The notes under the pieces were generated by a model. The model was not told the DNA's origin. It did not search any database and saw only the letters and a list, made by a program, of their open reading frames with translations. A stretch of 56,195 nucleotides of DNA from Bacteroidales bacterium (GTDB lineage: Bacteria > Bacteroidota > Bacteroidia > Bacteroidales > CAIWKO01), in the NCBI GenBank assembly GCA_018004645.1, contig JAGNBV010000008.1, positions 1 to 56,195 of the forward strand. Reading direction: 5' to 3'. Shown here piece after piece: positions 16,892 to 48,903 of this stretch; position 1 is the stretch's first letter; each line of letters begins with the position of its first letter. The position numbers were made by a program, and so were the translations under genes.

Positions 16892-16960
16892 TCAGGACTA
16901 AAGTCCCTGATCTGACAGATGTTCATTATTAACCACGGCATTAATGCCGTGGTTAATAAT
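16892..16960. repeat. REP-like palindromes at the 3' end of the RAYT gene
   Basis: Two palindromes. One (16892-16910) has the core GGACTAAAGTCC. The other is a perfect 36-bp palindrome at 16925-16960 centred on GGCATTAATGCC with arms continuing through AACCAC/GTGGTT. The larger one lies within the last codons of the transposase gene, and the smaller overlaps its stop. Confidence 0.85.
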
Positions 16961-17392
16961 GCCGGAATCTTTATCCAGGGCTTCATTCCTGATAAATTTT
17001 TCATATTCCTGAGCAAACGTAACTTTCTTATGATGGGCTTCCTGTCCGTTAATGTATTTTCTAACATTGTCCAACGCTGATTCGCTTACGGATACTGCAT
17101 AGTATTCATCTGCCCATCCAAACTTTGTTTTGGTAATTTTCTTATCATTGATCCAATGAGCAGATTCCCCTTTTATCAATTGCAAAACTTTAGCAATACT
17201 CATATCAGCATTAAGTCCGAACAAACAATGCAAATGATCTGTATATCCATCTATGGTGTCAATAAATAACCGTTTAACTTTCGCATTTTCTTTAACATGG
17301 GCGATCACACTTTTTCTGGTCTCATCCGTTAAAAATGGATATCGGTTTTTTGTTCCCCAGACTGCATGGATCATAACTTTTACAAAAGGCAT
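16898..17392 (-). CDS. REP-associated Y1 transposase (RAYT, IS200/IS605-like)
   Basis: A 164-aa HUH-family single-strand nuclease. HLH at residues 53-55 (TDHLHCLFGL) is the metal-binding motif, and Tyr113 in RKYINGQEAHHKKVTF is the expected nucleophile. Length and sequence fit the single-Y1 RAYT/TnpA group. No left and right IS200 ends or TnpB gene were seen. Instead the gene is bracketed by short GGxCTAAAGxCC-type palindromes, as in REP/RAYT loci, where the enzyme is thought to move or process the palindromes. The last 20 or so codons are built from palindrome DNA. It is probably a domesticated, possibly still active, enzyme. Confidence 0.85.
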   Translation of the reverse strand: MPFVKVMIHAVWGTKNRYPFLTDETRKSVIAHVKENAKVKRLFIDTIDGYTDHLHCLFGLNADMSIAKVLQLIKGESAHWINDKKITKTKFGWADEYYAVSVSESALDNVRKYINGQEAHHKKVTFAQEYEKFIRNEALDKDSGIINHGINAVVNNEHLSDQGL

Positions 17393-20074: not shown

Positions 20075-21565
20075 ATGAGAAAAGCCATTATCCTGATTAT
20101 TTCAATATTCATCTTTCAGATGACTAAGGCCAGCCCCGGAGATTCGATTTTTAATATGACGTACATCCATAATCTTCATATCACTTTTCCTTATCCGAAT
20201 TTTTTCGATTCCCTGATTTATACGAATATTACCGATGAATATATTCCTGTTGATATAGACTTTAACGGAGAAATATACAGCCAGGTGGGCATTAAAGTAA
20301 AAGGCAATTCATCATTCAATAACCCAAGCCAGAAAAAATCTTTTAAGCTTGATTTTAATACTTTCGTCCAGGGACAGGATATGCACGGGCTTAAAAAACT
20401 TAATTTCAACAATTCTTTCAAAGATCCATCATTCATGCGCGAAAAGCTCAATAATGATTTTCTGATTAGTCACGACCTTCCAGCCCCGCGGGTTACCTAC
20501 TGTAATGTTTACATGAACAACCAGCTTTGGGGATTATATGCCATTGTGGAAGAGATTGATGATGAATTTTGTACACGATGGTTTAATAGCAATGATGGCA
20601 ACCTGTTTAAAGGCGACCCCCATGGCACACTGCAATGGAAAGGAAGCATGAACCAGCCGTTGTATGAATCCGATTATGAACTTAAAAACAACAGCTCTGT
20701 AAACGACTGGAGCGACCTGATATCCCTGATCAATGTGATCAATAATACGCCTGATGCCAGTTTGCCTGCAACCTTGGATCAAAAGATGAACACGGAAGAT
20801 TTTATACGACACTGGGTGGCGGAAAATATTTTTGTAAACCTTGATTCCTACCTGGGCAGTGGACATAATTACTATATTTATCATGATACGGTTACTGATA
20901 AGTTTCAGTGGATTGCGTGGGACAGCAACGAATCATTTGGAAGCTTCAAAATGAACCTCAGTACCAGCCAATTGAAAAATCTCGATATGTATTTTGTTGG
21001 GCAGGCCGGTGCCAGGCCACTTTGTGAAAATCTGTTAGAAAACTCCCATTATAAAAACCTTTATGATATGGCTTACTGCCGGCTAAGGGATGATTTTTCC
21101 AATTTATATTTCGATCCAATCATTGACTCGTTGCGGCCGGTAATTCAAAGCAGCGTGTATTCCGACCCGAAAAAATTTTATAACAATGCCAAGTTTGATT
21201 CAAGTTTTAACTATGATGTGAAGTTGCCGGAAGGTATTGTTGTTTTTGGGTTAAAACCGTTTATTGCAGCTCGCAGTGTGGCTATTCAGAACAGTATTAC
21301 CGGTCATGGTGTGGATTGTTCGCTGCAGGTGTCTGAAGGCATAAGCCCGTTGCACGGGATAAATGTTTATCCCAACCCTGCGTCAGCCGTGTTGTATATT
21401 GAAGCGGGAATCCCCATTGAAAAAACAACACTTTATGATCTTCAGGGACGATTGGTGCGGACTTACTGCATAACCGCCGGATTTATTGATATCAGCGACG
21501 TTAGCCCGGGTATGTATGTGCTTAGGATAAACGATGGCCTGTACGGGAAAATAATTATTAACTAA
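20075..21565 (+). CDS. CotH-family protein with T9SS sorting domain
   Basis: 496 aa. A signal peptide (residues 1-19, ending TKAS) is followed by a CotH-type protein-kinase-like fold: VGIKVKGNSSF (early family motif), KKSFKLDF, FKGDPHGTLQW and FQWIAWDSNESFGSF, with the Asp of the metal-binding motif. CotH proteins in spore coats phosphorylate proteins, and homologues occur widely in Bacteroidetes as secreted proteins. The last 70 residues (YPNPASAVLYIEA, LYDLQGRLVR, GMYVLRI) form a type A T9SS sorting domain, so the product is exported and attached to or released from the cell surface. Substrate unknown. Confidence 0.88.
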   Translation: MRKAIILIISIFIFQMTKASPGDSIFNMTYIHNLHITFPYPNFFDSLIYTNITDEYIPVDIDFNGEIYSQVGIKVKGNSSFNNPSQKKSFKLDFNTFVQGQDMHGLKKLNFNNSFKDPSFMREKLNNDFLISHDLPAPRVTYCNVYMNNQLWGLYAIVEEIDDEFCTRWFNSNDGNLFKGDPHGTLQWKGSMNQPLYESDYELKNNSSVNDWSDLISLINVINNTPDASLPATLDQKMNTEDFIRHWVAENIFVNLDSYLGSGHNYYIYHDTVTDKFQWIAWDSNESFGSFKMNLSTSQLKNLDMYFVGQAGARPLCENLLENSHYKNLYDMAYCRLRDDFSNLYFDPIIDSLRPVIQSSVYSDPKKFYNNAKFDSSFNYDVKLPEGIVVFGLKPFIAARSVAIQNSITGHGVDCSLQVSEGISPLHGINVYPNPASAVLYIEAGIPIEKTTLYDLQGRLVRTYCITAGFIDISDVSPGMYVLRINDGLYGKIIIN

Positions 21566-21810: not shown

Positions 21811-23631
21811 TTATTTGAACCTTACTGTTACCTGCTGATTGGGTGCAGCATCAAAAACAATAAAGTTTGTATTGTCTTTTTTCACAATGGAGGCCTTGCC
21901 TATCCTGGCTTCAATGGCCGTTGGTTTTTTATACGCCTCGAAAGAAATATTTTTTATGGTAATACTGTCGGCGGTTTTTACGGTAATAATAGCTGATTCA
22001 TCATTTTCGTTCACAAAAAAACGTGTTTGTCCAAGCTTTTCCCAATAGTCCGCAACGGCTTCAATGGTGGTTATCCAGGTGTTTTCCGATTTAACTTGTT
22101 TTACTAAGTTTATCAGGGGTATCATGGTTGAATCACTATGTCCGACATATAGAGGATGTCCCAGGTAAACCATAAGTCCATTATATGGCTTTATGGCATA
22201 TTCCCAGGTGTTGAGTAAATACTTCTGATAAAGTTTGGCATCCTTTGTCAGCTTGTCTTCAGAATAGGCTCCATTGAGTATTTGTTCAAAGAAAAAGTAA
22301 TCATCATTCAAAATGGGGGAAATTTCCAACAGACCCGAATATTTGTACAGGCCGTTGCCCGAAATACATATTTCATAGGGGAATGCGCAGCCATAAAAAC
22401 TTTCAAGGTTGTCCACACCTATGCTGGAATCGAATTTGTATCTGCGTCCCGATAAACATTCTAATCCCAGAAAACTGCTTTTTGTAAACGGAAACCGAAA
22501 TCCCGTAAAAGATTTATTCCAGAATAATTCGTTAGCAATAATGTTTTTACTGATTTCGTAATAGGGTGCAGTTTGGTTATTAAGTTTACCAAAACCATTT
22601 GATTGCAAAGAATACTGTTTTAAGAAATCTCTTATAATGCTGTCGGGTTGCTCATTGACAAAAACTGTTGGGGCGATTTTTTCTTTTTCAAAAAAATCCA
22701 TCAGGCGTCTGTATTCACTTATTTTACCGGAAGAATTCAGGGTGGCGCAAAATGCATAACGGTGCGCGTCGGGCCAGATGTTAAGCCGCAACGAGCTGTT
22801 ATTTATTTTATAAAATGACGTAAGAACATAATGATAAAATTCGCGTATCTGTTCTGCACTCCAGTATCCGCCGGCATTTGACGGGTGCAGCAGGTAGGAG
22901 GTGGGAAGCAAAAAACTCATGCCTTTTTCGTAACGGTTCTGCACCAGGGCAGGAATGGTGTCTTCATTGCTGAGCCAGCTTGCCAGTACTTTCAGGCTGT
23001 CGGAATACATAGTGTCTATCACCAACGACCAAACATCCTCGGTAAATTCCGCTATGAAATTACCTTGCAATTCTTTGGTAATGGATCCGTCCAATCGATA
23101 TCCTTTGATGTCTTTTTCAACCAGGGATACTCCGAAACACTCTCCTAAAGCCCAGTTGCCGGGGGTTATGATGCCGTATAAACTGGTTCTGTCGGTGGCG
23201 TCGGGAAGGTTTCGGCCGATGTTGTCTCCTGCCACCAGAATACCTCCATTTTTTACCCAATTCACTATAGTTTGGAGTTCTTCATCTGCCATAAAAGTCA
23301 ATGAATACCTGCGGTCGGCATCATGGTAACCGGCAGCGGTGGGGAGTATCATTATATTGTAACGGTTCAGCTCCTGCGGATCAAGTAAAATATCCCTGGA
23401 TTTTAGCGTAACAAAGGCTCCAAGCCTGTTGAAGGTCTGCATGGCAATATTAACGCCTTCAGCAAGCACCCCATTCCCCAGATTTGATCCCGTGGTAACA
23501 ATCAATACCCTCGGCAACATATAGCCCTGCTCGCTTTCAGAGGGCGTATCAGCCACATTGTTTTTGTTGTTGCACGATAACAACAGGCTTAACATTATAA
23601 ATAGCAAGAAAAAATGACGTAGTGTTTTCAT
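21811..23631 (-). CDS. Exopolysaccharide-locus lipoprotein: amidotransferase-like plus degenerate deacetylase domain
   Basis: 606 aa, the last gene of a four-gene cluster. The signal peptide ends in LLLSCNN, a lipobox, so it is probably membrane-anchored. Residues about 40-260 look like a class I glutamine-amidotransferase/ThuA-like Rossmann domain (VLIVTTGSN; ILVAGDNIG) with no catalytic Cys in the usual nucleophile elbow. Residues about 290-560 have a NodB-like layout (HRYAFCATLNSS, then APTVFV), but the TFDD metal ligands are replaced by ATLNS, so deacetylase chemistry is unlikely. This domain pair recalls the middle and C-terminal parts of PelA and proteins annotated DUF2194; the name is uncertain. 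Its start overlaps the stop of the preceding gene in TGATG. Confidence 0.65.
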   Translation of the reverse strand: MKTLRHFFLLFIMLSLLLSCNNKNNVADTPSESEQGYMLPRVLIVTTGSNLGNGVLAEGVNIAMQTFNRLGAFVTLKSRDILLDPQELNRYNIMILPTAAGYHDADRRYSLTFMADEELQTIVNWVKNGGILVAGDNIGRNLPDATDRTSLYGIITPGNWALGECFGVSLVEKDIKGYRLDGSITKELQGNFIAEFTEDVWSLVIDTMYSDSLKVLASWLSNEDTIPALVQNRYEKGMSFLLPTSYLLHPSNAGGYWSAEQIREFYHYVLTSFYKINNSSLRLNIWPDAHRYAFCATLNSSGKISEYRRLMDFFEKEKIAPTVFVNEQPDSIIRDFLKQYSLQSNGFGKLNNQTAPYYEISKNIIANELFWNKSFTGFRFPFTKSSFLGLECLSGRRYKFDSSIGVDNLESFYGCAFPYEICISGNGLYKYSGLLEISPILNDDYFFFEQILNGAYSEDKLTKDAKLYQKYLLNTWEYAIKPYNGLMVYLGHPLYVGHSDSTMIPLINLVKQVKSENTWITTIEAVADYWEKLGQTRFFVNENDESAIITVKTADSITIKNISFEAYKKPTAIEARIGKASIVKKDNTNFIVFDAAPNQQVTVRFK

Positions 23632-26600
23632 CAGTCTAATATTTCAATGGTAACATCCTGATTAGGATAAATGTTGAAAAATAAAACATTGCTCCTGGCA
23701 TTATATATTCCATCGGCTGCACAATTGGTGATCCTGAATTTTTTATTTTTCGTCTCCAGCCTGATGGTAAGCGGGTGGTTATATATTTCAGGATTCAGCG
23801 GGCAATCCACACGAAGAAAAATGGCATTTTCGTGTGCCGAGGTTTTTATAACGGCGCTGTTCCGTTGTTTACTATATTTACCGATAGCCGAAATGGGGGC
23901 AATCCAGTAGCCGGAGTTTCTTACCAGGCGGATTTGTTTTACAAAATCGGCAGGGGTAACGGTGTAGTTATTGGTAACGTTATGCGATTCGTACAGCTTA
24001 TACTCCTTTGAAATCTTTGGGAAAATATGATGGTAAAGCAACACCGTCCACGAATTTTTATTGTTGGCCAATATTGAATCCAGTATGGTAATTGAAGGGT
24101 TTTCCGAGTTTAGGAATACCACGCTGTTGAGTTTCATAAAGTCATTATTGGCATTTTTTCCTGGTGTGGCCTCGCCTGTCCTGCCGAACAGAAATCCCGC
24201 GTTTTTTGCCGCGTTGACCACTATGTCAGGCGAATTTGAATATGGGTAATGTATAACCGAAATGTTGATTCCTAATTTGGCCTCAAGGCTTTTCTTACTT
24301 TCTTGAAAATCTTTTATTATCTGGGCTGCAGACATGCCCGCGTATTTCTTGTGTTCGTTGCCATGAAAAGAAATTTCGTGACCTTCATAAATGATGTCAT
24401 GTACCTGTTTTATGCCAAGTCTTTTTATGGCAAAGCTTCCTTCTTCAGCAATCAGTGAGGGCGTTTCGTGCAGCCACGAATCTACCAGCCCGAAGTTTGC
24501 CTTCAGGTTATATTTTCCTAATGTTGGCAGCGCGTATTCGTATTGGCTGTAATCCGCATCATCAAAGGTAATGGATACGGCGCCGGCCCGGTTGCCGTAG
24601 TAAGGGCAAATGGAAAATTTTGTGGCGGGGTCTTTGGTTTTAGGCGTTGTGTCGGCAATCACATCCAGGTGGGCAAAAAGTGTTTTTAGCGTGTCGTAAA
24701 TGGGCTTTAACCGTGTTGTATAGGATGGCTGTTCCCAGGTTGCCCAGGTGTATTTGTACGGCCTGCTGATGTTGGTTTTGGCAGTTGTGTTTCCTTTTTT
24801 GTCGGTTACGTAATAAAAAATTTTAAAGCCCGGTGTGACAGAACTTTCAATAGCTTCGGTACCCGGCACATCGTCAAGGACCGACCGGGAGGAAGGATCG
24901 CTGACATTAAGCAGCAGCCATGGCAAACGGATTTCAAGAGTTTTTGTCTGGTTGTCCCAATACCAGTCGGCATTGGAATACCTGGGGTCACTGCTATTGC
25001 CATGATGCAATGTACCCTGATTAAAACAGACAGAATCAATTCTTTCGCCCATGATGGTTTCTTTTCCTCTGTTGGCTAACAGCAATTGTTCAGCATAAAT
25101 ACCGTTATTGTTGTATTTTGAAGCGTAAACAGGAATGATGTCTTTCACAACATCAGTATATAGCAAATATTGATCGTCAACCAATATTTTTGCATTGTCA
25201 ACGGATTCAATTTTTAGGAGAAATTCGATTCCATTGCTTATTTCTTTCTCAATTCCTGGCAATTTGTGATTCCCCTTTTTTTTGTCATAGGTGTCAAAAG
25301 CAATCAGGAGGTTGTTTTGGTTCAGATTGAATGTGGGCAGGCGCAATGTAAGGTAAAAGTATGCGGCATCAGCATCGGCAACAATAAATTCTTTGTTTCC
25401 CGCGGGAATTTCTTTCCAGTCATTCAGTTTGCCGTCAACAGTCTTTGTGCGTGATTCCACGGCCAGTATCCCATAATTTTGTTCGGGATTTTCCATATTG
25501 TGCCACAGTTTTCTTCTTTCGGCGGGTTGCTGAAAATCCATGACAAGCCAATTATGTTTGTACCATTCGTCAGTCCATTCAAAGTAGAGGCCTCCGGCAC
25601 ATGCCGACTCGTGGATGTCTGTGGTCAGGATTGATGATAAGTGGGCTTGTGCCAGTTCGCTGTGGCCGCCCTGATGAAAGCCCTGCGAGCTGAAATGACT
25701 GTTTCCCCTGCTGGAGGGCAGGCCATATTCTGCTATAAGCAAGGGTATGCCTTCGTTACGGCTTTTGAGGTCTTTTAAATATCCAAGAAAATTATCATTT
25801 TGTCCCCGGTTGTTTTTTGTAGTACGGTATTTTTCTTCCATAAAGATATAATCAGGATAATAGGGATAAACATGATAGGAGGCAAAAATGTCGGGCACGA
25901 ACAACTCCGAGGATTGGAATTTTGTAAAATCAATGCTTACCAGATCGTTGTCGTATTCCCTGATTTTGTCATTGTCGATAAACTCGTAGTTATGATACAT
26001 CGGATCAAGAGGCAGCCAGTTTACAAAGGAAACCGGGTGTTGTTTCAGGAAGGTCTGTGTCTCGTAGTGAACCAAATAATCCATCATTTTTGCCAAAAAT
26101 ACTTCCATGGCCGAACCTTCATTTATTGAGACAAACAATCCCGGGTATTTTGTTACCGATGCATTCACTGCATTGGTAAACATAACCGATTTTGGTTCCC
26201 ATTCCCTCCCCAGCAGATACCCAATAACATATTTGGAAACATCGGACGAATATACCCCGCTGGCATGTCCGGCTTTAGGTTTGAGATATGCTTTGCCATT
26301 AATGACCTCCACGGCTTTCCTGATTTCTTTCTGATATGATTTCATAAAGCTCGTATTCAGGTAATTTCTGTCGAGGGGTTCTTCGGTCCATATTCCCTGC
26401 AGGATATAAAGACACCGGTTTTGGTTGTTCAGATTATAATAAGCAAGGGCGTCGTAAAATTCGGGGGGCAGTATGGTATATACCCGTATTACATTCGAGT
26501 TCATTTTCCCTATCATGCGGAACCATTGAAGGTAATCATCAAAAGATAATGAAAACTCAACCGGGAAATAACCGGGCATAGCAGTGCCAATATTCACCCC

Positions 26601-26879
26601 CTTCAGATAAATGTCTTTCCAGACACTTTTACGACTGCCGTCCACCACCCGGGGCTGTCTTATTTTGAAGTAATTTCCGTTGGCTATAGCATAATAATTC
26701 ACTTTGTGACGCAACTTGACCAATTCTTCTTTTGATAACAATTCCACCGGAAGTTCAGTTTCTTCTTCCTGAATCAGCGATTCCTTTTTTGTTCGCGCAT
26801 CTTCTATTTTCAGCATTTGATACACAACAAATGCAAGCAGCATTACCAGAAACAGTATTATGAGATACTTTGCTTTCAT
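23631..26879 (-). CDS. Membrane-anchored glycoside hydrolase / CBM9-like / NodB polysaccharide deacetylase
   Basis: 1082 aa. An N-terminal membrane anchor (about 4-23) precedes a clan-A TIM-barrel region (YLKGVNIGTAMPGYFP). LGREWEP (Glu226) and LLIAEYG (Glu384) are the likely acid/base and nucleophile. From about 480 a VDGKLNDWKEI segment starts a CBM9-like beta-sandwich. From about 760 a NodB deacetylase follows: SITFDDADY (motif 1), SFHGNEH (motif 2, two His), HYPYSNS (motif 3) and LLYHHI (last motif). It would trim and deacetylate a nascent exopolysaccharide in the periplasm, a role split differently in PgaB and PelA. It starts in TGATG overlap with the TPR porin gene and ends in TGATG overlap with the lipoprotein gene. 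Confidence 0.82.
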   Translation of the reverse strand: MKAKYLIILFLVMLLAFVVYQMLKIEDARTKKESLIQEEETELPVELLSKEELVKLRHKVNYYAIANGNYFKIRQPRVVDGSRKSVWKDIYLKGVNIGTAMPGYFPVEFSLSFDDYLQWFRMIGKMNSNVIRVYTILPPEFYDALAYYNLNNQNRCLYILQGIWTEEPLDRNYLNTSFMKSYQKEIRKAVEVINGKAYLKPKAGHASGVYSSDVSKYVIGYLLGREWEPKSVMFTNAVNASVTKYPGLFVSINEGSAMEVFLAKMMDYLVHYETQTFLKQHPVSFVNWLPLDPMYHNYEFIDNDKIREYDNDLVSIDFTKFQSSELFVPDIFASYHVYPYYPDYIFMEEKYRTTKNNRGQNDNFLGYLKDLKSRNEGIPLLIAEYGLPSSRGNSHFSSQGFHQGGHSELAQAHLSSILTTDIHESACAGGLYFEWTDEWYKHNWLVMDFQQPAERRKLWHNMENPEQNYGILAVESRTKTVDGKLNDWKEIPAGNKEFIVADADAAYFYLTLRLPTFNLNQNNLLIAFDTYDKKKGNHKLPGIEKEISNGIEFLLKIESVDNAKILVDDQYLLYTDVVKDIIPVYASKYNNNGIYAEQLLLANRGKETIMGERIDSVCFNQGTLHHGNSSDPRYSNADWYWDNQTKTLEIRLPWLLLNVSDPSSRSVLDDVPGTEAIESSVTPGFKIFYYVTDKKGNTTAKTNISRPYKYTWATWEQPSYTTRLKPIYDTLKTLFAHLDVIADTTPKTKDPATKFSICPYYGNRAGAVSITFDDADYSQYEYALPTLGKYNLKANFGLVDSWLHETPSLIAEEGSFAIKRLGIKQVHDIIYEGHEISFHGNEHKKYAGMSAAQIIKDFQESKKSLEAKLGINISVIHYPYSNSPDIVVNAAKNAGFLFGRTGEATPGKNANNDFMKLNSVVFLNSENPSITILDSILANNKNSWTVLLYHHIFPKISKEYKLYESHNVTNNYTVTPADFVKQIRLVRNSGYWIAPISAIGKYSKQRNSAVIKTSAHENAIFLRVDCPLNPEIYNHPLTIRLETKNKKFRITNCAADGIYNARSNVLFFNIYPNQDVTIEILD

Positions 26880-28423
26880 CAGAACGATTGTTTAACCGAA
26901 AACCGGATATTCATGCTTTGATAATACTTATTATAAAAATAGCTTCCGCCCAGCGAAAAACTGGTTTTATTTTTCTCGTATCCTAACTCTAATGTGCCAT
27001 TGTACTGATTGGTGTTATAGTTGTCCCGTCCATACATGAATTCAAAATAATTGTAAAATCCCTTATAGCTATAGAATTCTGATATCATGGCGCCCAGTAT
27101 GGTTCTGTTGGAAGGGGAATAATACAATGGCGAAACATATTTGTAGTCCATGTCATAAAGGTTTACGCCGAAGGTTATGTTGGGATTTTTCAGAAATTCC
27201 TTCAATTCATATTTGAGTTCAATTTTAAACCGGGTGTTGGTATTGTTCCTTTTTTCAATGGTATCGCGGGATTCGTTTACAAATACACTGTTGTCCCTGA
27301 TGACGCTGTATCGGTACATACCTCCCAGGCTAATGCCCCTGTAAGACAATATTAGTGTGTTTTCGGCAAAATTATGCCCCACTTTATTCCAGTAATAAAA
27401 ATAATCGTAGGCGGTTGTCAGGTAATTTCTGATTTTAAATTTTTTAATTGAATAAGCAAAACTCCAGGTGCCTCCGAACGAAGTTATCCGGGAATCATTG
27501 ATGCTGGCACCTGCATATACGCTAATACGGTGAGATTTTAGGATAAATAAGGGATTGATCAGGGTATTGTCGAACCACCGGCGGACATCGGACAGATACA
27601 GATTGTCGCGCTGCGAATAATCCCAGAGCGTGCTGACGGTAAGCGAAAAGTGGTCGGTCAGGCGTTTGTTGAATGCATATTTCTGGACAAATGCCGATAT
27701 TTTGTATGCCGGCGTATCTTTGATGGCCGAAGGTTCTTCTTCGGTAATGTACATCAGGGTGGCGCTTACTGAGGAGGCTAATTCACTTTTTACATTGGTA
27801 TACTTAGTGATATAATCCTGATTCCCGGGATCAAGTGATAATGCCTTTTTATAAAATTTCAAGGCGGAGGAAGGCTTGTCTTGCCAGTAATACATTTTCC
27901 CTATACCAGCCCATGCCTCGGCCAGGGTGCTGTCTATTTCCAGCATTTTTTTATATGCCAAAGTTGCCGAATCCAGGCGGTTGTTGACAATATGAATAAA
28001 AGCCATATCGGCGTAAACATCAGCATCCTGATTGTTTACCGCCAACGACCGTTTTAAACAGGCCGCCGCTTTGGGGTAGGATTCCTGTTTGGTATAACAC
28101 CGTGCCATTCCATTCAGGATGTCTGTATTATCAGGATATTGGTGCAGCAACCTCTCGTATCCTTCAAGTGCCTTATCATATTGTTTCAAACGGTAATGAT
28201 TGTTTGCAATACCAAATTTTGCATCATAATTGGCTGTGTCTATCAGCAATGCTTTTGTGTAATATTGATTCGACAATTCAAAATTACCCAAGGCACAGGC
28301 CTCCTGCCCTTTGTTTATAAGGTAAGAAACGGAGGTGCTATCTGTTGCATCTTGTCCATACAACGAAAAAAAATTGCCTAACAACAATAAAATGATTCCT
28401 GTTTTTAATTTATTAAAACGCAT
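26879..28423 (-). CDS. TPR-containing outer-membrane exopolysaccharide porin
   Basis: 514 aa. The signal peptide ends at LYGQ. About five tetratricopeptide repeats follow (residues about 35-215; for example YDKALEGYERLLHQYPDN), then a beta-barrel of alternating aromatic strands ending in KQSF, the usual C-terminal Phe of outer-membrane proteins. This two-part plan is that of PgaA, BcsC and PelB, in which the TPRs guide the polymer into the barrel. At about 300 residues the barrel is normal for a 16-strand pore, but the TPR region is short. ATG 28423 is preferred, 2 nt after the glycosyltransferase stop; a TTG at 28429 would overlap it. Confidence 0.85.
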   Translation of the reverse strand: MRFNKLKTGIILLLLGNFFSLYGQDATDSTSVSYLINKGQEACALGNFELSNQYYTKALLIDTANYDAKFGIANNHYRLKQYDKALEGYERLLHQYPDNTDILNGMARCYTKQESYPKAAACLKRSLAVNNQDADVYADMAFIHIVNNRLDSATLAYKKMLEIDSTLAEAWAGIGKMYYWQDKPSSALKFYKKALSLDPGNQDYITKYTNVKSELASSVSATLMYITEEEPSAIKDTPAYKISAFVQKYAFNKRLTDHFSLTVSTLWDYSQRDNLYLSDVRRWFDNTLINPLFILKSHRISVYAGASINDSRITSFGGTWSFAYSIKKFKIRNYLTTAYDYFYYWNKVGHNFAENTLILSYRGISLGGMYRYSVIRDNSVFVNESRDTIEKRNNTNTRFKIELKYELKEFLKNPNITFGVNLYDMDYKYVSPLYYSPSNRTILGAMISEFYSYKGFYNYFEFMYGRDNYNTNQYNGTLELGYEKNKTSFSLGGSYFYNKYYQSMNIRFSVKQSF

Positions 28424-28425
28424 AT

Positions 28426-29937
28426 TCAATTCTCAAATGTTTTAATCCCTTTTCGTTCAAATTTATTCCAGTTGCTTTTTTTCTGCATGATGTAGGCGAT
28501 ACCCTTTAATTGTGCGAACATCTTAAAAAATTCATAAGAGACACTGCCGATTATGCTGGTAACAAGCAGCAACAACCAATCACCAAAAGTGTTATACCGC
28601 AATGTCTTTCTGTCGATGCTGAGATGGTTTTTGCTTTTAGTCTCTAATACAACGGTAATAACGCTCATAATAATGGTTGTAATTAATAGTACACTGATAA
28701 GCAGCAAAAGTATCCATTGGGCATCAATATCTTTCACCAGTGAGAGCACGATGAGAAATACGAGGCTGAATATTTTCATAAAGGGTGCCAGAAATTCAAA
28801 AATAAAATAATAAGGCATGGCCAGCAATCCTGTGGCTCCATATTTGGGTTCAAACATAATCTTCCGGTGAAGCTTCAGTGATTCCCCCAATCCCTGATGC
28901 CATCGTGCCCTTTGCTTAAAAAGGTTTTTGTGGTTGTCAGGAACTTCTGTCCAGCACACAGGATAAGGAAGAAAGGTTACCTTGCCTTTTATTTTGTTCT
29001 CACGGTAATAACGCCACAACCTGATCACCACCTCCATGTCTTCGCAGACGGTCTTACTTCGCAATCCGGCGGTTTTAACTATATAGGGATGGTCGTTGAA
29101 TCCGGTAAGCAACCCGCCGATATTCAGCAGGTCTTCTTTTCGGTATAAAGAAAAAGCACCCGACATGATCAGCAACATATTCATTTTACTCAAACTAAGC
29201 CGTGCAATCATGAAAGATTTCATATATTCAACAATCTGCCACAATACCCAGATATTGCGGGGCATTTTTCTGGTGGATATTTTGCCTTCTGAAATGACCA
29301 GGCCGTTGGATGCGGCCAGAAAACCTCCTGTAACAAAGACATGGGGATTTTCTATCATGGGCTGAAGCACCATTTTCAGTGCCTGATCGTCAAGGATGGA
29401 ATCCGCATCAATGGTGCAAATGTATTTTTTTGAGGATATGTTTAGCCCGGCATTAACGGAGTCGGCCTTGCCTCCGTTTTCCTTGTCAATGAGTAAAATT
29501 TTGTTGCTGCTGTCACGATAAACTTTTTTGATGGTCCCGGTTTTTATGCCGCCCTGTAATTCAAACCCGGTTTCTGTAAAACTAAATGAATTCAGCATCG
29601 TTTGCAGCGTCCTGTCTTTGGATCCGTCATTGATTACAATGATCTCAAAATCATCATAATCTATTTTGGAAAGCATTTTTATGCACGAAACCAGCGAAAC
29701 TTCCTCGTTATAGGCAGGAACGATAATGGAAACGGAATGCTTGTAATAATTGACGGAAGAAATTTTTCTGACTTTGTTCCGGTGATGTAATACCAGTGAA
29801 TATATAAACAAAAAAATGTCAATAAGAAAATACAATGTGAAATAAATGACCATCAGTTTTTCAATTATCCGGACAAAATATAGTAATGCCGTCTGAAGGT
29901 CAATCCCGGATAAGAAAATATACAACGGTTCGTTCAT
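28426..29937 (-). CDS. Processive family 2 glycosyltransferase (PgaC/HasA-like)
   Basis: 503 aa, first gene of the exopolysaccharide cluster. Two N-terminal hydrophobic stretches (about 15-50) precede the GT-A domain: SIIVPAYNEE, NDGSKD (Asp104), IDADS (Asp177/179), CEDME (Asp300) and QRARW (342-346). This is the D, D, D, Q(R)xRW set of processive synthases. C-terminal helices (about 370-450) would form the polymer channel. There is no PilZ domain, so direct c-di-GMP control is not evident. Donor sugar cannot be decided; a deacetylase in the cluster favours an N-acetylated sugar such as GlcNAc. No strong promoter box was seen upstream, so read-through from the methyltransferase gene is possible. 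Confidence 0.9.
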   Translation of the reverse strand: MNEPLYIFLSGIDLQTALLYFVRIIEKLMVIYFTLYFLIDIFLFIYSLVLHHRNKVRKISSVNYYKHSVSIIVPAYNEEVSLVSCIKMLSKIDYDDFEIIVINDGSKDRTLQTMLNSFSFTETGFELQGGIKTGTIKKVYRDSSNKILLIDKENGGKADSVNAGLNISSKKYICTIDADSILDDQALKMVLQPMIENPHVFVTGGFLAASNGLVISEGKISTRKMPRNIWVLWQIVEYMKSFMIARLSLSKMNMLLIMSGAFSLYRKEDLLNIGGLLTGFNDHPYIVKTAGLRSKTVCEDMEVVIRLWRYYRENKIKGKVTFLPYPVCWTEVPDNHKNLFKQRARWHQGLGESLKLHRKIMFEPKYGATGLLAMPYYFIFEFLAPFMKIFSLVFLIVLSLVKDIDAQWILLLLISVLLITTIIMSVITVVLETKSKNHLSIDRKTLRYNTFGDWLLLLVTSIIGSVSYEFFKMFAQLKGIAYIMQKKSNWNKFERKGIKTFEN

Positions 29938-30012: not shown

Positions 30013-30633
30013 TTATGCATTACTTTTTGCCGTGATCAAAAAAACCGGATACTCTTTCGTTTCGTTGCCAATCTGCTTTTTGATTGAAAAACATGGCCGG
30101 TGATGTATTTCGGCAAAGCCGGTTTTTGTAAGCCATTGGGCAAATTGATTTACATCAAACCCTTTATGCCCTTTAAAATCTTCCCCGTGAAAAGTTCCAT
30201 CTTCCGGATAGAGATCAGCAATAGCAACAATTCCCCCCTCGTTTAATAAGGTCGAAAAACGCTTAAGTATTAGTGTTACATCTTCGATGTGATGCAGCAC
30301 CATCTGTGTAAAAATCACATCGAATTTTTCATCCGTCAGTTCCTCTTTTTCGAGGTCGAAAAAACGTGTTTTTAGGTTGACGGCGCCTGCGGCAATTATT
30401 TTGTCGCCGGTTACTTTTAACATTTCTCTCGAACTGTCAAGCAATACGATTTCATCAAAATAATCCCTCAGCATAAAACTTAAAATGCCGGTGCCGGCCC
30501 CATACTCCATTGCTCTCATCACAGGGGTTGCTGGTAGGTGTTCTATGATTTTTTCGGCGATGGCCGCCGAACGTTCGGCGTGCATCGGGTTGTCATCCCA
30601 CTCCCTGGCTCTTTTATCAAAATAATTCATCAT
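30013..30633 (-). CDS. Class I SAM-dependent methyltransferase
   Basis: 206 aa. MEYGAGTGILSFML is SAM-binding motif I, IVLLDSSREML motif II, and FDVIFTQMVLHHI motif IV. It resembles UbiE/COQ5-like and small-molecule methyltransferases. The substrate is not evident. TATATTTG on the minus strand (30650-30657) is a good -7 box and leaves a leader of only about 10 nt. It lies between the redox operon and the exopolysaccharide cluster and could be cotranscribed with the latter (75-bp gap with a short GGATTTT/AAAATCC palindrome). Confidence 0.85.
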   Translation of the reverse strand: MMNYFDKRAREWDDNPMHAERSAAIAEKIIEHLPATPVMRAMEYGAGTGILSFMLRDYFDEIVLLDSSREMLKVTGDKIIAAGAVNLKTRFFDLEKEELTDEKFDVIFTQMVLHHIEDVTLILKRFSTLLNEGGIVAIADLYPEDGTFHGEDFKGHKGFDVNQFAQWLTKTGFAEIHHRPCFSIKKQIGNETKEYPVFLITAKSNA

Positions 30634-31667: not shown

Positions 31668-32030
31668 TTAATTTTGTTTTTTGTTGAGCAACACCTCGTC
31701 AATCACCTGTATAAACGATTGTTTAGGCATAGCACCCATGGTCATCTGTGGCTGGCCTTCCATCGGTACGAAAAGGATGGAGGGAATGCTCTGTATGCCA
31801 AATTCTCCGGCCAGTTCCTGCTCCTGTTCAGTGTCTATTTTGTAAATATCGATTTTGCCTTCGTATTCTTTGGACAGTTCTTCCAATACCGGCGCCACCA
31901 TCTTGCAGGGGCCGCACCAATCGGCGTAAAAGTCGATGATACATGGCTTGTTGCCTTCAAATTTCCATTCCTGGTTGATTTCGTAATTAAATACCTTTTG
32001 TTTAAAAGTTTCAGCTGTTAAATGTTCCAT
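31668..32030 (-). CDS. trxA: Thioredoxin (WCGPC type)
   Basis: A 120-aa cytosolic thioredoxin with WCGPCKM and the cis-Pro loop SIPSILFV; conserved Asp in IDFYAD precedes the active site. The only member of the operon's three thioredoxins with the standard CGPC motif, so it is the most likely general disulfide reductase. It lies between the membrane-anchored thioredoxin (32073) and the DUF6132-like gene. Confidence 0.93.
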   Translation of the reverse strand: MEHLTAETFKQKVFNYEINQEWKFEGNKPCIIDFYADWCGPCKMVAPVLEELSKEYEGKIDIYKIDTEQEQELAGEFGIQSIPSILFVPMEGQPQMTMGAMPKQSFIQVIDEVLLNKKQN

Positions 32031-32072
32031 TTTTTTATGTTTTTAGATTGTTATGAATGATTAGTTTTTTAT

Positions 32073-32546
32073 TTATTTGATTAATTTGTTCATTTCGGCT
32101 ATTATTACTTCCTTAGAGGTAACGCCGACAAATGTTTTTACCACCTTGCCGTCTTTGAACAACAGCATGGTAGGTATGCTTTGAATAAAATAACGGTCTC
32201 TGATTTTTGGATTTTGATCAATATCTAATTTACCTATCACGGCTTTTCCGTTCATCAGGGCGCTTACCTCGTCGAGAATTGGAGCCTGTATCCTGCAAGG
32301 CCTGCACCATGTTGCCCAGAAATCTACCAAAACCAATCCTTTTTTGATTTTTTCATCAAATGAATTGTCGGTCAAAATCAGAACGCCGGCCATATTTTCA
32401 GAGACAGCGGATACTGTCACGGCCTTTTTTTGGCCGGGAGTCGCCGCATTCGTGGCTTTTCCTGCCGTGCATTCATAAATCGTCAGGGCGGCTACGACCA
32501 CTGTTGCAGTGATTAAAACCCAGGAGTATTTTTTTACGTGTTTCAT
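32073..32546 (-). CDS. Membrane-anchored thioredoxin (WCRPC type)
   Basis: 157 aa. An N-terminal hydrophobic segment (about 10-25) followed by a linker makes it a membrane-tethered or exported protein. The thioredoxin domain has FWATWCRPCRIQAP, LDIDQNPKIRDRY and SIPTMLLF. CRPC with a positive X residue is unlike CGPC and shifts the redox potential in model thioredoxins, but the direction here cannot be predicted. It would carry electrons across to the periplasm or act on periplasmic substrates. Confidence 0.88.
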   Translation of the reverse strand: MKHVKKYSWVLITATVVVAALTIYECTAGKATNAATPGQKKAVTVSAVSENMAGVLILTDNSFDEKIKKGLVLVDFWATWCRPCRIQAPILDEVSALMNGKAVIGKLDIDQNPKIRDRYFIQSIPTMLLFKDGKVVKTFVGVTSKEVIIAEMNKLIK

Positions 32547-32574
32547 GTTTTTCTTGTTTGTTGATTTTATTGAT

Positions 32575-32907
32575 TTATATGAACATTCTGTCGAAAGTGT
32601 TTAGCAGGGTTTGTTTTTGTTGTATGCCTACAAACTGTTTTATCATTTTGCCGTTTCTGAACAATAACATCGTAGGGATGCTGCTGATGCGATAATGCGA
32701 AGCGATGTCGCGGAATTTTTCAACGTTCAGTTTTGCTATGGTCACTTTATCTTTCATTTCGGCAGCTACCTCTTCGAGTATGGGCGACTGTATGCGGCAG
32801 GGGACACACCATTCTGCCCAGAAATCCACCAGGGTGAGTTTCTCCTTTATCGCCTGCTGAAAAGTTTCGGCCGTCAGGTTTATAATGTTTTTATTTTTTG
32901 AAAACAT
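32575..32907 (-). CDS. Thioredoxin-like protein (WCVPC type), first gene of the redox operon
   Basis: 110 aa with a cytosolic thioredoxin fold: VDFWAEWCVPCRIQSP and SIPTMLLFRNG. CVPC is atypical. This gene heads the set of six same-strand genes and starts 20 nt from the predicted sigma-54 transcript start. The protein keeps the Asp/cis-Pro framework, so it is probably active. Its partner could be the ferredoxin-like protein or a substrate protein elsewhere. Confidence 0.88.
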   Translation of the reverse strand: MFSKNKNIINLTAETFQQAIKEKLTLVDFWAEWCVPCRIQSPILEEVAAEMKDKVTIAKLNVEKFRDIASHYRISSIPTMLLFRNGKMIKQFVGIQQKQTLLNTFDRMFI

Positions 32908-47358: not shown

Positions 47359-48423
47359 TTACTTAACAAAAAATCCATTACTGAAATATCCAACCTTTTT
47401 TTCTTGGTTTGGAAGCGCAAGTGTACCTTGACCATTGAATTTACCATCTTTGAATTCTCCGACATATGTTCCTCCGTCAGGAAATGTGAATGTTCCTTGA
47501 CCATTGATTATGCCATCTTTGAATTCTCCTACGTATATTGATCCTTTTGGAGATGTGAATGTTCCTTGACCATTGAATTTGTCATCTTTGAATTCTCCAA
47601 CATATTTTTCTCCAGTTGAAGCAGTATATGTTCCTTGACCATTACTTTTACCATCTTTGAATTCTCCGACATATTTTTCTCCGCTTGGAAAGGTATATGT
47701 TCCTTGACCATTTCTTTTACCATCTTTGAATTCTCCGACATATATTGATCCTTTTGGAGATGTGAGTGTTCCTTGACCACTGTAATTGCCATCTTTGAAT
47801 TCTCCGACGTATTTTTCTCCGCTTGGAAAGGTATATGTTCCTTGACCATTGTACTTACCATCTTTGAATTCTCCAACATATTTTTCTCCGTCTGGAAATG
47901 TATGTGTTCCTTGGCCATTTTTTTTACCATCTTTGAATTCTCCAACATATTTTTCTCCGTCTGAATCTGTAAGTGTTCCTTGACCATTTCTTTTATCATC
48001 TTTGAATTCTCCGACATATTTTGTTCCGTTAGAATATGTATATGTTCCTTGACCATTGTATTTGCCATCTTTGAATTCTCCGACATATTTTGTTCCGTAT
48101 GGAAATGTGAGTGTCCCTTGACCATTGTACTTACCATCTTTGAATTCTCCGATATATTCTTCTCCGTCTGGAACTGTTAGTGTTCCTTGACCATTTCTTT
48201 TATCATCTTTGAATTCTCCGACATATTTTGCGCCTCCAGGATATGAATATGTTCCTTGACCATATCTTTTACCATCTTTGAATTCTCCGACATATTTTCT
48301 TCCAATTGAATCAACATAAGTGCCATATCCATTAAAACAGTCTCCGCTAATACAACCACTGGTTTGTGCACTTAAACTGGTAGTTAAAATGATAAAAAGT
48401 TGAAAAATGATGATGTTTTTCAT
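47359..48423 (-). CDS. Secreted MORN-repeat protein (long paralogue)
   Basis: 354 aa from ATG 48423. A signal peptide (LSAQ), the TSGCISGDC element, then 13 regular 23-residue MORN units (KYVGEFKDGKYNGQGT-like) and a short terminal one. The DNA is a 69-bp tandem repeat with strong unit similarity, so the copy number can be expected to change by recombination. Because 69 is a multiple of three, other frames stay open across it and give false genes. Codons are uniform. The longer open frame starts at 48468 but would need a start inside the probable promoter (TAATTTTG on the minus strand, 48466-48473). The function is unknown. Confidence 0.88.
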   Translation of the reverse strand: MKNIIIFQLFIILTTSLSAQTSGCISGDCFNGYGTYVDSIGRKYVGEFKDGKRYGQGTYSYPGGAKYVGEFKDDKRNGQGTLTVPDGEEYIGEFKDGKYNGQGTLTFPYGTKYVGEFKDGKYNGQGTYTYSNGTKYVGEFKDDKRNGQGTLTDSDGEKYVGEFKDGKKNGQGTHTFPDGEKYVGEFKDGKYNGQGTYTFPSGEKYVGEFKDGNYSGQGTLTSPKGSIYVGEFKDGKRNGQGTYTFPSGEKYVGEFKDGKSNGQGTYTASTGEKYVGEFKDDKFNGQGTFTSPKGSIYVGEFKDGIINGQGTFTFPDGGTYVGEFKDGKFNGQGTLALPNQEKKVGYFSNGFFVK

Positions 48424-48903
48424 AATGTGTTTTTTTGATTTCGAATAATTTCTATAAACTAATTTCAAAATTACATATAATTTAAATTAAAAAAAATTAA
48501 TATCTCTTTGCGGAGATCAACACAATAATAAACGTGTCTATTTTCGTCTAAAATAGATAAGACAGACGCACACGTTCCCGGGCGTGTTATGATGTCGGAA
48601 AAACCTTTTCACACGCAGCTAATGACTACGGAAAAACCTTTGTATGTGTTAAATGTCCCAATTTGCTCCCATTGGTTTCCCGTCATAATAACTAATCGGT
48701 TGCGGTTATTAAAGAATAAAACAATCTATTTTCGCCTGAAAAAGAGAATCAAGGAAACAATTTGCCTACCTCAGGTTCGCCAGAAATTTTCATCAGCTGT
48801 AAATAAATGATTTATGGTTGGTTTTTTTGTTGTGGTACAAACTGGGGGACGAATGAAGCTGAATGCCGCGGGAAATTTTTTACCAGAATCTGCCGCAATT
48901 AGT
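48424..48903. other. Intergenic region upstream of the MORN genes, with hairpins
   Basis: 480 bp with no supported gene. Open frames at 48589-48810 and 48814-49227 show no family or signal features. A 27-bp segment just upstream of the long gene (48421-48447) repeats upstream of the short one (47255-47281) with one change. Hairpins include TCTATTTT-CGTCT-AAAATAGA (48537-48557) and ACACG/CGTGT (around 48570-48587). Possibly leader or regulatory RNA, but nothing more can be said. Confidence 0.5.

Follow-up and report, generated by a model that had tools for sequence, protein, structure and literature searches.

Four adjacent genes on the minus strand of a Bacteroidales contig (hereafter the window, the whole stretch of 56,195 nucleotides that was analyzed) raise the question of whether they encode one of the known polysaccharide secretion systems, Pga, Bcs, or Pel, or a system of another type. 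The open reading frames were verified: the genes, referred to as A, B, C, and D in the direction of reading, overlapped by 4, 1, and 1 nt (A-B, B-C, and C-D, respectively), in line with the compact locus reported in a preliminary description of this DNA. The general components of the synthase-dependent class were found in this one operon: a processive inner-membrane GT2, a periplasmic processing enzyme, and a TPR protein with a putative barrel. We regard it as quite probable that the four genes constitute an operon for synthase-dependent exopolysaccharide secretion that belongs to a type not named before, while confidence in the identity of the polymer is low. A methyltransferase gene lies upstream (30013-30633) and a CotH gene downstream; both were left out of the system because the flanks vary between the other loci.

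Domain structures of the four proteins

Gene A (28426..29937, minus strand; 503 aa) encodes a processive GT2 polysaccharide synthase. It matched Pfam Glycos_transf_2 (1e-24) and Glyco_tranf_2_3, and hydropathy placed transmembrane segments near residues 20-52 and 377-435. The DGS (D104), DADS (D177/D179), EDM, and QRARW motifs were all retained in 8/8 aligned orthologues, which bears out the earlier assignment as a processive GT2 with D104, a DxD at 177-179, and QRARW. By profile, the nearest relatives were PgaC and chondroitin/hyaluronan-type synthases.

Gene B (26879..28429, minus strand) contains about six TPRs (residues ~34-215), as detected by Pfam, followed by ~300 aa without a Pfam match but with a barrel-like sequence pattern. 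The protein is therefore predicted to be a TPR and outer-membrane β-barrel export porin, as had been proposed; the TPRs are supported by Pfam hits and the barrel by sequence pattern only.

Gene C (23631..26879, minus strand; 1082 aa) encodes a protein with one N-terminal transmembrane segment (residues 1-27, by hydropathy), probably an inner-membrane anchor, and three domains on the same strand: a clan GH-A-like TIM-barrel glycosidase (25470..26672, residues ~70-470; AF2 and Foldseek), a β-sandwich (24645..25457, residues ~475-745; strand-rich in the AF2 model), and a NodB/CE4 deacetylase (23865..24617, residues ~755-1005; Polysacc_deac_1, 1.6e-19). Residues 70-745 had no Pfam, NCBIfam, or PDB-sequence match. 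The "CBM9" label previously given to the β-sandwich had no Pfam match at E<1 and was not retained: the domain is CBM9/DOMON-like by pattern only, and a homologous region is present in Bacillota relatives. In the AF2 model of C (pLDDT 82), the glycosidase formed a TIM barrel with weak loops, and its top PDB match in Foldseek was GH157 (9g4n; E=5.3e-11, 14% identity, TM 0.41 by target), an endo-β-1,3-glucanase family. E226 follows predicted β4 (strand 218-223) and E384 lies within predicted β7 (380-385) of this model, which corresponds to the clan GH-A layout of an acid/base Glu after β4 and a nucleophile Glu at β7. These two residues, together with R132, W288, and E438, were invariant in 97/97 glycosidase homologues from at least seven phyla. 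A genome scan confirmed at least 571 relatives of this domain among the 596 pattern matches listed; thus, the glycosidase of C represents a large family that none of the profile libraries consulted contains.

The NodB motifs of the window's C were all intact: TFDDA, HGNEH, HYPYS, and YHH, covering the DD, HxxxH, xPYS, and terminal His of CE4. Among PDB sequences, this domain matched PgaB (4u10/5bu6/3vus) and PplD structures; by sequence, it appears closest to CE4/PgaB-type enzymes, and intact NodB domains of the family resemble de-N-acetylases.

Gene D (21811..23631, minus strand; 606 aa) encodes a lipoprotein with the lipobox LLSC20, C20 being the lipid-anchor residue. The AF2 model (pLDDT 90.8) comprised an α/β/α domain (~38-250), a CE fold without metal ligands (~280-535), and a C-terminal β domain (~536-606). 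A weak GH42M/GATase-like profile match (0.004) was obtained, the DD was replaced (TLNS), and HxxxH was absent (LQSNGFG), while the RFPF motif and the His of GHP remained; the earlier reading of D as a lipoprotein with amidotransferase-like and degenerate NodB-like parts was thus sustained. The top PDB match in Foldseek was human NDST1 (9f6z; E=1.7e-11), which aligned over the full length (593 columns) with a low overall TM, indicating that the arrangement of domains differs from that in NDST1; CE4 enzymes and GH42-type domains followed. A similar succession of domains has been described for PelADA (610 aa; α/β/α CBM114, CE26, and β-rich domains; PMC13254593), PelA (a PelADA-like plan with a hydrolase in front; PMC12022489), Agd3 (an N-terminal carbohydrate-binding domain, then a CE domain; PMC7229062), and NDST1 (an N-terminal domain, then a CE domain; PMC10864358). 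With its three domains, the model of D fits the plan described for PelADA, Agd3, and NDST1, minus the metal ligands; the likeness to PelADA and PelA rests on the published plan, PelA being absent from the best 50 fold matches of D. The ligands were gone in nearly all orthologues, and D is probably a polymer-binding pseudo-deacetylase. One locus carries a second D copy with FDDGG and HSYSH (L071:579-2423), suggesting that the ancestor of D was active.

Co-conservation and erosion of the deacetylase

Of 393 scanned genomes from the same order, nine besides that of the window carried a long-form C, in some cases on a short contig, and A-B-C-D occurred together in every locus long enough. A scan with one genome per species yielded at least 18 long-form loci (L056-L073) in Bacteroidota, Ignavibacteria, Cloacimonadota, Delongbacteria, and WOR-3, five of which were the same contigs as loci of the same-order scan. 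The complete four-gene unit was found in at least 12 further distinct loci of Bacteroidota and Delongbacteria, mostly tightly spaced; these 12 were used in the comparison, and the count becomes 13 with L047, where the contig ends within D. Contig-cut versions, with truncations consistent with the unit, occurred in Ignavibacteria, Cloacimonadota, and WOR-3; on one contig from WOR-3 (L072), D lies ahead of A, and B is missing from the gene calls. Among the loci listed, D was found only within loci of the four-gene type. The pairwise divergences of A, B, C, and D were correlated (r 0.87-0.91, Mantel p 0.0005), which partly reflects shared species phylogeny. A single clade (98/83 support) united the long C proteins of FCB phyla and WOR-3; its neighbors were Bacillota forms and stand-alone Bacteroidota forms.

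This gene-neighborhood analysis, which the preliminary description had proposed as a check, showed that the GT2 is co-conserved with the other three genes; the restriction to Bacteroidetes was not upheld, since the system extends to Delongbacteria, WOR-3, Ignavibacteria, and Cloacimonadota. C was lacking from three further genomes of the genus to which the window belongs, suggesting that the system is accessory, and its recurrence amid varied gene surroundings, across further families and phyla, argues against a chance association.

The NodB domain of C was far less constant than the glycosidase. Its motifs were intact in 4/18 aligned orthologues (the window, L057, L066, and L069), and largely so in L043 by a separate alignment, and were eroded in 14/18. 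"Built-in deacetylation", as claimed earlier, is therefore consistent with the window, but does not extend to the system as a whole. Since the eroded forms are spread over several separate branches, loss probably occurred more than once, as read from the tree rather than from a formal reconstruction. In four loci (L058, L059, L071, and L073), a separate gene of ~355 aa upstream of A matched residues ~750-1060 of C and had kept every motif, suggesting that the activity lost in C may be available in trans. No stand-alone NodB besides C was found at E<=1e-10 in G312, G350, G439, G384, G484, G548, G654, or G457, and in these lineages with a degenerate C, the activity appears to be genuinely gone, as far as the completeness of the genomes allows. 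Motif conservation thus indicates that deacetylation is optional across the family, with the glycosidase as the invariant processing step. The presence of an intact NodB in only a minority of orthologues also weakens the case for a single polymer.

Relatives of the C glycosidase also had GT2 genes as neighbors in Bacillota, Gemmatimonadota, Acidobacteriota, and Deinococcota; outside the FCB group, a GT2 lay within 6 kb of the glycosidase in 26/41 of the L084-L135 loci that had flanks of 6 kb or more on either side. These loci resemble the four-gene unit in having a homologous glycosidase and β-sandwich beside a homologous GT2 (C against Bacillus proteins, HHalign E 5e-146). In contrast, they contain a HEAT-repeat protein, often with a response regulator and a kinase, and are without D and without a NodB domain on the C homologue. 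Homology between the N-terminal extension of the Bacillus C proteins and the α/β/α domain of D was not significant. A Deinococcus plasmid carried a TPR-glycosidase fusion, a HEAT protein, and a GT2 in a row; besides this HEAT-GT2 locus, a scan of a plasmid collection found only partial relatives, and a comparison with PHROGs gave nothing useful.

Comparison with known polysaccharide systems

The claim of a distinct secreted-polymer system, belonging to neither Pga, Bcs, nor Pel, held: the curated cut-offs were missed, and no published description of this operon was found in the open-access papers searched. The EmbRS-regulated cluster of Rubrivivax was considered as the same system and ruled out, being a Wzx/Wzy-type locus. 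The absence of PilZ and GGDEF, noted earlier for the locus, extended to the whole assembly (93% complete), which makes c-di-GMP control of a known kind unlikely. The four-gene unit contained neither a PgaD-like nor a BcsB-like gene. Cellulose systems share with it a GT2 synthase, the TPR-barrel protein BcsC, and a dedicated glycosidase; however, the scores were 28.8 against a cut-off of 858 for BcsC and 33 against 699 for CelA, PilZ was missing, and the glycosidase is a TIM barrel, whereas BcsZ belongs to GH8. Agd3 (CE18, CBM87) and NDST1, the latter being the best full-length fold match of D, have the same domain plan as D, but are active, metal-dependent deacetylases that act on galactosaminogalactan in fungi and on heparan sulfate in animals, respectively, while D is predicted to be inactive.

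As for the polymer, a hexosamine polymer is plausible, the N-acetylated hexosamine polymer of the preliminary description being a guess, although the nearest fold of the glycosidase is a β-1,3-glucanase. A system of the same class may instead secrete a neutral β-glucan (β-1,3 or mixed), with the C glycosidase as its endo-glucanase and NodB as an O-deacetylase or a vestige. The GH157 fold match and the repeated loss of the deacetylase beside an invariant glycosidase are consistent with such a polymer, but fold likeness at 14% identity does not fix the substrate, the GT2 is nearest to PgaC and chondroitin/hyaluronan-type synthases, and intact NodB domains resemble de-N-acetylases; we consider this possible, but rather unlikely.

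Clearly improbable is a diverged Pga operon producing partially deacetylated poly-β-1,6-GlcNAc, in which A is PgaC, B is PgaA, and C is PgaB with its glycosidase replaced. Pga likewise has a GT2 synthase, a TPR-barrel porin, and one protein in which a glycosidase is fused to a NodB deacetylase. The best NCBIfam model of A was PgaC (TIGR03937), with 24% identity to Escherichia coli PgaC over 290 columns, the PgaA and PgaB models matched B and C, and the C NodB matched PgaB structures. However, the scores fell far below the equivalog cut-offs: 115.6 against 422.3 bits for PgaC/IcaA, 37.7 against 366.65 for PgaA (the best export-porin model of B, together with BcsC), and 39.1 against 321.9 for PgaB; an hhalign comparison of B with E. 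coli PgaA was not significant. The domain order of C is the reverse of that in PgaB (deacetylase N-terminal, glycosidase C-terminal), and its N-terminal glycosidase, with a GH157-like and not a PgaB-like top fold match, apparently belongs to another family. D has no Pga counterpart, and neither PgaD nor c-di-GMP input was found. Deacetylation plays a central part in the export and adhesion of Pga and Pel polymers, and PNAG export depends on deacetylation by PgaB, whereas the deacetylase was eroded in most relatives of C.

A Pel-type system making a GalNAc-rich polymer, with PelA split and PelF replaced by a GT2, is highly improbable. The plan of D (606 aa, against 610 aa in PelADA of Bacillus cereus, CE26 and CBM114) fits that published for PelADA and for PelA (CE21, GH166) domains 2-4, and a TPR-barrel export protein is present as in PelB. 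However, the synthase is a GT2 and not a GT4, and no PelF above the cut-off was found in the genome (best 73.6 bits against 100; sub-threshold GT4 matches ring in all controls). The other pel genes are absent from the unit, D did not match PelA by sequence at E<1, its DD and HxxxH ligands are lost in nearly all orthologues, and no PelA hydrolase was among the best 50 fold matches of C. The earlier view of the accessory proteins as "PelA split in two" is therefore retained for the domain plan of D, and abandoned for C, the NodB of which is CE4/PgaB-type. Finally, a cell-wall or lipid-linked glycan decoration locus without secretion, the GT2 adding sugars to an envelope carrier, would suit the membrane anchor of C and its deacetylase and glycosidase domains, which occur in envelope remodeling too, but is very unlikely given the processive QxxRW motif of A, the TPR-barrel protein adjoining A and C in every complete locus, and the absence of carrier-lipid enzymes from the conserved unit.

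Possible mechanism and significance

Computation shows which genes are present, that they are conserved together, how their domains fold, and which catalytic residues are kept or lost; from this, we infer biochemical activities, localization, polymer identity, and the order of steps for the proposed secretion operon. A would polymerize a nucleotide sugar and push the resulting chain across the inner membrane. C, anchored there by one helix, would meet the chain in the periplasm and cut or trim it with its retaining clan GH-A-type glycosidase, and, in the window's species, its NodB domain would remove acetyl groups. D, a PelADA/Agd3-shaped lipoprotein without metal ligands, may bind and escort the chain, and the TPR domain of B may guide it into its own barrel for export.

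Evenly balanced, in our estimate, is a broader proposal: a widespread, unrecognized exopolysaccharide-synthase lineage defined by one uncatalogued glycosidase family, the catalytic residues of which are never lost. It would come in two forms: GT2-TPR barrel-NodB/D, present in FCB phyla and WOR-3, and GT2-HEAT-response regulator, present in Bacillota, Gemmatimonadota, and others. Its polymer would differ from PNAG, Pel, and cellulose, and deacetylation would be dispensable, repeatedly lost, and sometimes supplied from a separate gene. If the four genes are indeed a secretion operon of a new type, the few known synthase-dependent exopolysaccharide systems would gain a further member, and a glycosidase family would be exposed; the glycosidase could also serve as a tool against biofilms. 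Since the deacetylase has decayed time and again with the glycosidase left intact, the processing step that export needs would become directly testable.

Loci containing C-like glycosidases

A broad family of loci, in which a glycosidase resembling C (the glycosidase/beta-sandwich/NodB protein of the operon) occurs together with a GT2 and a HEAT-repeat protein (L084-L135, L074-L083, and L148), was distributed in Bacillota, Gemmatimonadota, Holophagaceae, and Deinococcus, and was often accompanied by a response regulator and a hybrid kinase; no name was found for this locus family. The C proteins of Bacillaceae (L101:8783-12028 and its relatives) possessed an N-terminal extension of ~380 residues (IVDKTVP...REHKG), which had no match in Pfam and no significant similarity to D, the lipoprotein of the operon. 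In Bacteroidota, stand-alone C-like glycosidases of ~870 amino acids without NodB were located close to a GT2 that was different but belonged to the same family (L013, L014, L050, and L054), and TPR and response-regulator genes were also present in some of these loci.

Second copy of D

At one of the loci with long-form C, a degenerate D shares its operon with a second paralogue of D (L071:579-2423), in which the DD and HxxxH motifs are intact.

Other genes in the window

Next to the operon, on the opposite strand, lies a gene (20075-21565) whose product is CotH kinase-like, secreted, and equipped with a tail for type IX secretion (Por_Secre_tail). Translations indicated three tandem thioredoxin-like genes (31668-32907) and, when inspected by eye, a short ORF similar to transposases of the IS200 type (Y1; 16898-17392). 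The protein encoded at 47359-48468 consists nearly wholly of MORN repeats.
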